NCBI GenBank assembly: GCA_937920495.1
Contig: CALEUQ010000017.1
Location: forward strand, 29,769 to 93,768
DNA: 64,000 bases
DNA from: an uncultured bacterium
Lineage (GTDB): Bacteria; Spirochaetota; UBA4802; UB4802
Direction of reading: 5' to 3'
The notes beneath the pieces were generated by a model, which had not been told where the DNA came from, made no database searches, and was given only the letters and a program-made list of their open reading frames with translations. The stretch's first letter is position 1; each line of letters starts with the position of its first letter. Both the position numbers and the translations under genes were made by a program. This document shows positions 61,488 through 62,900 of the stretch, piece after piece.

Positions 61488-61564
61488 TTGACAAAATACG
61501 AGTAGTAAAAATAATCAGAAAAATCAGAATAGTCAAAATTATCAGAATAATCAAAAAATCAGAA
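61488..61564 (+). promoter_or_regulatory. Promoter and six-fold 9-bp operator array for the arsM regulator
   Basis: TTGACA (61488-61493), 16-bp spacer and AATAAT (61510-61515) form a good promoter. Starting at the -10, TCAGAA or TCAAAA recurs at 61515, 61524, 61533, 61542, 61551 and 61559: spacing 9, 9, 9, 9, 8. The array covers the transcription start and ends shortly before the ribosome site AGAGG. This is typical of an operator, possibly for the AbrB-like protein encoded next. It lies in the 426-bp gap upstream of the gene; the rest of the gap is AT-rich with nothing else visible. Confidence 0.7.
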
Positions 61565-61583
61565 ATAAAAGAAGAGGTTCATT

Positions 61584-61838
61584 ATGCATACATCTCAATG
61601 TTGTAATTCATCTATATGTTCAATTGAGGCGATAGTTACTGTGGATGAACGCGGACAGGTAGTATTACCAAAAGAGTTGCGAGATAAATTTGGGGTCAGA
61701 GCAGGGGATAAATTTATAGTGGCAACCCTGGGGAGAGAAAAATCGTTATGTTGTATTGCCTTTGTGAGGGCTGAGTCATTAAACTCAGTTATTGTTGAGC
61801 AGATAGCTCCGGCGTTTGGTGATCTGCGGAAATGCTAA
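61584..61838 (+). CDS. Cys-rich AbrB/SpoVT-family regulator (HgcAB-associated type)
   Basis: 84 residues. AbrB-type swapped-hairpin core: AIVTVDERGQVVLPKELRDKFGVRAGDKFIV. Extra cysteines: CCNSSIC before the core, CC in SLCCIAFV and a C-terminal Cys, suitable for metal or arsenite binding. The protein resembles the AbrB-like proteins annotated next to hgcAB and arsM. No hgcAB is in the window. It is followed 38 bp later by arsM and preceded by a repeat operator array, so it is probably an autoregulating metal(loid) sensor; that role is inferred. Confidence 0.8.
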   Translation: MHTSQCCNSSICSIEAIVTVDERGQVVLPKELRDKFGVRAGDKFIVATLGREKSLCCIAFVRAESLNSVIVEQIAPAFGDLRKC

Positions 61839-61876
61839 ATGCATACACACTAAAACTTAACCTGTGAGGGAATACG

Positions 61877-62668
61877 ATGGAATCAAAAGTAAAAATTAAA
61901 GAGATAGTTAAACAGAATTACGGCACCATTGCATTATCCAAAAATTCCTGTTGTGCTGCCGGCATCTGCTGTGCTCCTGCTGATATTGCCATCAAAATTG
62001 GATATTCAAAAGATGAAATAGCCAACCTTGATACCGCTAATCTGGGATTGGGATGTGGTAATCCCAATGCGTTAGCATCTCTCAAAGAAGGTGATGTGGT
62101 ACTTGATTTGGGAAGTGGTGCTGGTATAGATTGCTTTTTGGCAGCCAAAAAGGTGGGGCCACATGGCAAAGTAATTGGTATTGATATGACACATGAGATG
62201 ATTGCATTGGCAAAAGAAAATGCAGAAAAATTACAGGTAAGAAATGTTGAATTTATTCTGGGTGATATTGAACATTTACCTGTTGATGATAATTCAGTTG
62301 ATGTGGTAATTTCAAATTGTGTGATAAATTTAGCACCTGATAAAGGACAGGTATTTAAAGAGGCGTACAGAGTATTAAAAAGTGGGGGTAGAATGGCTGT
62401 ATCCGATATAGTTTTAAAGGGGACATTGCCACTGCAAATTAAAAAATCTATTGATGCATATGTGAGTTGCATTGCAGGTGCTATTCAAAAAGCTAAGTAT
62501 ATTGATTTACTTTATAAAGCTGGTTTTAAGAATGTAGAAATTGTAAAGGAATATAGTTATGCCAGCATATTTGAAAGCAACAATTGGAATTTAGATGGCA
62601 ATGCTCTTATAGATTCTGAGCAATATAAAGATGTTGTGAACAGTATAAGTCTTATTGCGCGAAAATAA
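61877..62668 (+). CDS. arsM: Arsenite S-adenosylmethionine methyltransferase ArsM
   Basis: 263 residues. SAM-binding motif VLDLGSGAGIDCFLA near residue 76. The three family cysteines align: Cys60 (GLGCGNP), Cys148 (ISNCVINL) and Cys198 (SCIAGA). An extra N-terminal CCAAGICC may also bind arsenic. Methylates arsenite to volatile or excretable forms. TGAGGGAA precedes the ATG. Part of a two-gene arsenic unit with the AbrB-like regulator; no arsR, arsB or arsC is seen. Confidence 0.92.
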   Translation: MESKVKIKEIVKQNYGTIALSKNSCCAAGICCAPADIAIKIGYSKDEIANLDTANLGLGCGNPNALASLKEGDVVLDLGSGAGIDCFLAAKKVGPHGKVIGIDMTHEMIALAKENAEKLQVRNVEFILGDIEHLPVDDNSVDVVISNCVINLAPDKGQVFKEAYRVLKSGGRMAVSDIVLKGTLPLQIKKSIDAYVSCIAGAIQKAKYIDLLYKAGFKNVEIVKEYSYASIFESNNWNLDGNALIDSEQYKDVVNSISLIARK

Positions 62669-62735: not shown

Positions 62736-62900
62736 ATGAAGTCTGCAATTTCTGCTATTCGTTATATGATGGCATTTGCACCTGGATTTTGCTTTTTAGT
62801 TTTGGTAGATTTTGTTTCAATACTTCCTATTACACGCCAGGGATTTGATGAGATAAAGAAGGTACTTGAACAAAGGAAGAGCAATACAAATTTGAGGTAA
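62736..62900 (+). CDS. Possible 54-residue membrane peptide
   Basis: Too short for the ORF track. ATG 62736 to TAA 62900. A hydrophobic segment (FAPGFCFLVLVDFVSILPI) is followed by a charged tail (FDEIKKVLEQRKSN). No ribosome site upstream. The end contains TTGAGGTAA, which serves as the ribosome site of the next gene. Could be a real small protein or chance. Confidence 0.3.
   Translation: MKSAISAIRYMMAFAPGFCFLVLVDFVSILPITRQGFDEIKKVLEQRKSNTNLR

Follow-up and report, generated by a model that had tools for sequence, protein, structure and literature searches.

How hgcAB is controlled, and what its native role is, are matters still debated in mercury biogeochemistry. In 112 genomes, the gene right before hgcAB encodes a putative regulator (McDaniel 2020, PMC7438021), and an AbrB/PrlF-like gene was described upstream of archaeal hgcA (Zhang 2023, PMC10349881). 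We infer that these two and the curated NCBIfam family NF040962 (HgcC, "HgcAB-associated protein") represent one and the same family. For Pseudodesulfovibrio mercurii ND132, an ArsR-like repressor of hgcAB is cited in PMC10349881. That arsenic genes occur near hgcAB is furthermore already known. Among regulators that read repeated sites, MraZ has the AbrB fold. As an octamer, MraZ occupies a series of direct repeats in the promoter of its own gene, the Mollicutes site being (AAAGTGKN3)3 with a 10-bp step (PMC5282649).

The papers searched (few of them subscription ones) describe no operator, signal or pairing with arsM for the HgcC family. The regulator upstream of hgcAB is thus already published, and the arsM branch and a shared 9-bp operator are new within the literature searched. 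Both are described here, starting from a stretch of 64,000 nucleotides (the window) of an uncultured spirochaete, the closest database relative of which is Spirochaetia bacterium UBA2205.

An hgcC-like gene in front of arsM

The locus comprises the following features, all on the forward strand:

61488-61493, forward strand: -35 box TTGACA of a presumed promoter (11 of 12 consensus matches jointly with AATAAT, 16-nt spacer)
61510-61515, forward strand: best -10 box, AATAAT, with a one-base overlap with the first repeat
61515-61564, forward strand: putative operator array of six units, from the repeat positions, with steps of 9, 9, 9, 9 and 8
61584-61838, forward strand: hgcC-like gene for an 84-aa putative regulator of AbrB/MazE fold (NF040962 and PF04014 matches)
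61877-62668, forward strand: arsM, predicted arsenite S-adenosylmethionine methyltransferase, 263 aa (NF008823)

The 84-aa protein scores 86.9 bits against NF040962 (cut-off 70) and is also matched by Pfam PF04014 (MazE_antitoxin; 35.6 bits, cut-off 24.7) and TIGR01439 (42.8 bits, cut-off 28.3). An earlier note on this DNA had likened it to the AbrB proteins found by hgcAB, and it indeed passes the cut-off of that exact family; the cysteine motifs listed there (CCNSSIC, CC and a terminal C) are likewise all present, as CC at residues 6-7, C12, CC at residues 56-57 and C84. Only AbrB-type models match the protein, and none for the winged-helix HTH of ArsR/SmtB; it has one AbrB-domain stretch, where MraZ has two and belongs to the division/cell-wall cluster, and the MraZ model gives 20.2 vs 162 bits. 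As the next gene is arsM instead of hgcAB, and hgcA found no match in the window genome or its four same-genus genomes, the sequence makes the protein a homologue of HgcC, whereas its gene context is not "HgcAB-associated". AlphaFold2 (three sequences) yielded a weak monomer (pLDDT 62), and a fold search with that model returned no significant match, so that no conclusion is based on it.

Across 19 family sequences one cysteine is invariant and the adjacent position is cysteine in 17, the arsM-linked protein of G142 having TC in place of CC. N-terminal cysteines occur in nearly all of them at varying positions, and the terminal cysteine of the window protein is not conserved among relatives. 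The other AbrB-domain genes of the window genome (L001 and L003, on contigs C62 and C61) are each followed, as judged by eye, by a PIN-like toxin ORF. In this they resemble ordinary toxin-antitoxin pairs and differ from the hgcC-like gene.

The arsM gene starts 38 bp past the hgcC stop and its product scores 341 bits against NF008823 (cut-off 263). In alignments with solved ArsM structures, C60, C148 and C198 of the predicted ArsM coincide with the conserved cysteines, and the protein also contains CCAAGICC, in agreement with the earlier description of an arsM with all three catalytic cysteines plus this motif. Further downstream, a 54-aa ORF (window 62736-62900) resembles, on visual comparison, the C-terminus of an MFS_2 sugar/cation symporter, the gene for which is intact at the same place in a relative (L004, 1986-3350); since the remainder of the symporter gene is missing from the window genome, this ORF looks like a deletion remnant. 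In the relative UBA2205 (L004, 1459-1842), a SnoaL-like gene that is absent in the window species directly follows arsM.

The array consists of TCAGAA units at 61515, 61524, 61542 and 61559 and TCAAAA units at 61533 and 61551. The six repeats at 9-bp steps of the earlier note hold for the first four steps, the final one being 8 bp, and of the overlap with the -10 and start region that it had pointed out, the -10 part is base 61515, which the first TCAGAA shares with AATAAT. From there, the array covers some 50 bp of the presumed leader, within AT-rich sequence of low complexity. A search of the 64-kb window for four consecutive TCARAA units at 9-bp steps (up to two mismatches) gave three matches, which overlap one another at the array; when the whole window was shuffled 100 times with dinucleotides preserved, no such four-unit run arose. 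No ArsR-like gene is present among the neighbouring ORFs checked, so that the reported absence of ArsR-type control holds for these ORFs.

The gene pair in two phyla

HgcC loci were gathered by protein family, without use of the motif, from Spirochaetota and Hydrogenedentota, which provided 19 independent readable HgcC promoters from the two phyla. The gene following hgcC is arsM at 16 of these 19 loci and hgcA, itself followed by an hgcB-like ORF, at the other three (G046, G113 and G216); a toxin gene adjoins hgcC at none of the 19. Genus g5 is split in this respect, with the HgcC-family protein encoded before hgcA in G046 and before arsM in G184 and G213, and these last two genomes have weak, distant HgcA matches only. 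In G216 (L062, L063), hgcC is divided between two contig ends that agree at 208 of 209 overlapping bases, on the strength of which the locus was joined across an assembly break inside the operon. The distance from hgcC to the start of arsM amounts to 100-250 bp in G003 and G427. In a tree of the HgcC proteins the hgcAB-linked ones do not form a single clade; as support is low, no evolutionary direction is claimed. A plasmid search using the HgcC-like protein gave no match, and viral contigs yielded nothing with either an hgcC protein or the operator as query. Among 399 Clostridia-side genomes no hgcC was found at a strict threshold, which, as nothing matched there, is not proof of absence.

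A 9-bp operator shared by arsM and hgcAB operons

For each of the 19 promoters, TCAG/CTGA cores were counted over the 110 bp that end at the start codon, and the counts were compared with 300 shuffles. The promoters contain 60 cores (15.8 in shuffles), and the centre-to-centre distances fall almost exclusively on multiples of nine, with 29 pairs at 9 bp, 17 at 18 bp, 8 at 27 bp and 3 at 36 bp, as compared to never more than one pair at each of the remaining distances up to 40 bp. Shuffled sequences gave a mean of 0.14 pairs at 9 bp and a maximum of 3 in the 300 trials. The earlier note had staked its reading on the repeats recurring upstream of orthologous loci, and 18 of the 19 family promoters do carry two or more cores at a 9-bp distance, ten of them three in a row; the three hgcAB-linked promoters (G046, G113, G216) all have three cores at 9-bp steps. 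The exception is G393 (TCTGTAATTTCCGTATATACTGA), in which the frame is kept around a single exact core and the neighbouring cores are mutated or degenerate. In a control set of 17 promoters that belong to other AbrB-domain genes, 23 cores were counted, no two of them 9 bp apart. Since TCAGA and its reverse complement TCTGA are both present in the same phase, the core can be written as TCWGA, which is its own reverse complement. Neighbouring cores are separated by four bases of AT-rich sequence, with a GC content of 7% as against 34% in the flanks.

At most family loci, a TTGAC-like -35 box, a 17-bp spacer and a TATACT/TATAAT-like -10 box form a sigma-70-like promoter, with cores that overlap the -10 box, at -13, -4 and +5 or at -2, +7 and +16 relative to its first base. 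In the genus of the window, the array starts at or near the -10 box and continues downstream; the arrays of Hydrogenedentota lie within the promoter, whereas the window array is mostly downstream of the -10 box. A protein bound in either layout would obstruct RNA polymerase, and this speaks for repression. Each 9-bp step lacks about 51 degrees of a complete helical turn, which would distribute bound units over more than one face of the DNA. The wrapping or oligomeric binder suggested in the earlier note agrees with this and is reasonable in view of the fixed 9-bp phase.

In a search of 10 spirochaete genomes, the three-core pattern gave 1-7 matches each, at least one of them at hgcC in six of the ten. 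One of the further matches in the window genome is identical in three species and looks coding, and we make no claim of a wider regulon beyond the hgcC loci from these genome-wide matches. G142 has a second three-core 9-bp array between hgcC and arsM, beside a TTGACG box (L064, about 4785), which suggests that arsM has a second controlled promoter of its own there. Scattered over two Hydrogenedentota genomes, G425 and G428 (L070, L073), are dozens of 9-bp tandem repeats that are rich in GC and of the TCWGACCGR type; these TCWGACC-type repeats were left aside here, being probably unrelated dispersed repeats.

Proposed mechanism and alternatives

We consider it probable that hgcC and arsM form an autoregulated operon in which an oligomeric HgcC repressor occupies the 9-bp array and leaves it upon binding a soft metal(loid), As(III) being the likeliest. 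HgcC dimers side by side, or a larger oligomer, would sit on TCWGA cores exactly 9 bp apart and cover the -10 region and the transcription start, thereby blocking RNA polymerase and repressing both hgcC itself and arsM. Binding of As(III) or methylated trivalent arsenic by the conserved cysteines (the CC pair of the last strand together with the N-terminal cysteines) would cause HgcC to leave the DNA, so that ArsM would be produced when needed. In related bacteria, the same protein family and 9-bp operator stand in front of hgcAB. As(III) is favoured as ligand because arsM is the commonest partner gene; arsenic sensing by HgcC is plausible, and the conserved cysteines fit a thiophilic ligand without singling out As(III). 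Some features weigh against this mechanism as a whole, namely the one exact core of G393 and the final 8-bp step of the window array, the position of this array mostly downstream of the -10 box, unlike in Hydrogenedentota, the 100-250 bp in front of arsM in G003 and G427, the TC of G142, and the sampling of two phyla with a poorly resolved protein tree.

The signal could also differ from the one proposed, with HgcC and its operator working as described but responding to Hg(II), thiol/redox or sulfide stress, and with arsM and hgcAB as two outputs of a single soft-metal response. This reading, which we hold to be possible though rather doubtful, gains from the fact that HgcC family and operator also precede hgcAB, that the extra cysteines differ in position between members, and that vicinal cysteines bind Hg(II) and oxidants besides As(III). 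Most members in both phyla, however, pair with arsM, most of the arsM-paired genomes tested have no hgcA match over the cut-off, and a different regulator of hgcAB, the ArsR-like one of P. mercurii ND132, is arsenic-responsive as cited in PMC10349881. It is unlikely that the array is bound by another regulator with HgcC as an accessory or structural protein: although the binding of HgcC to the array is deduced from sequence, the array tracks hgcC in two phyla whichever operon comes next, it is missing upstream of other AbrB-domain genes, and AbrB-fold proteins bind DNA.

Most of the window array lies downstream of the -10 box and would be transcribed, which is in line with repeats that act in the RNA, as an element of the 5' untranslated leader. 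Such a role is nevertheless very improbable, given that the cores of Hydrogenedentota and G113 are found in the -35/-10 spacer, where they would escape transcription, and that TCAGA and TCTGA in the same phase are expected for duplex DNA sites. We give hardly any credence to a functionless AT-rich simple-sequence repeat: the window region is AT-rich and of low complexity, yet the exact 9-bp phasing recurs in the promoters of GC-rich genomes, and this view is contradicted by the conservation across phyla as well as by the 29 pairs, a number that none of the 300 shuffles approached with their maximum of 3. Equally little speaks for the AbrB gene as the antitoxin of a toxin-antitoxin pair, as was suggested for relatives upstream of archaeal hgcA (PMC10349881). 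The Pfam name MazE_antitoxin would suit this idea, but a toxin partner is missing, with arsM or hgcA next at 19 of 19 loci, and it is the other AbrB-domain genes of the window genome that do adjoin a PIN-like toxin ORF (by eye).

To return to the preferred reading of a metalloid-released HgcC repressor, the finding that the HgcC family precedes arsM in bacteria where hgcA is not detectable, and that the two operon types have one sharply delimited operator in common, suggests a single, testable switch for arsenic and mercury methylation. It provides a defined DNA probe, a protein and a candidate ligand, and may account, via a regulator unrelated to ArsR, for earlier reports that connect arsenic genes with mercury methylation. 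More tentatively, and with somewhat less than even confidence, HgcC may be regarded as the founder of a metalloid-sensor class built on the AbrB fold, which would read DNA as a 9-bp TCWGA lattice and control arsenic and mercury methylation. If so, mercury methylation would have taken over, or would share, an arsenic-response switch, and arsenic would induce hgcAB expression in these organisms.

Comparison with known systems

The solved ArsM relatives (5evj, 4fr0/4fs8) have the catalytic domain and the three aligned cysteines in common with the window ArsM, which is shorter than these proteins and ordinary in other respects. With the HgcC of hgcAB operons, the window protein shares the family, by curated cut-off, and the position as first gene of the operon, and the same 9-bp operator is found at the three hgcAB loci examined; the window locus differs in its partner, arsM, and in that no hgcA was detected in the genome. 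The proposed logic of cysteine-based metalloid sensing, repression and release resembles that of the ArsR/SmtB repressors of ars operons and of the ArsR-like protein of ND132. The winged helix of the latter and the AbrB fold of HgcC are, however, not homologous, and the type of operator differs too. MraZ, in turn, offers a precedent for proteins of HgcC's kind that read repeats in their own promoter. HgcC is set apart from it by the 9-bp step, the TCWGA core, a single AbrB domain in about 84 aa and the conserved cysteines, and the strict 9-bp phasing poses a testable puzzle of protein-DNA recognition.
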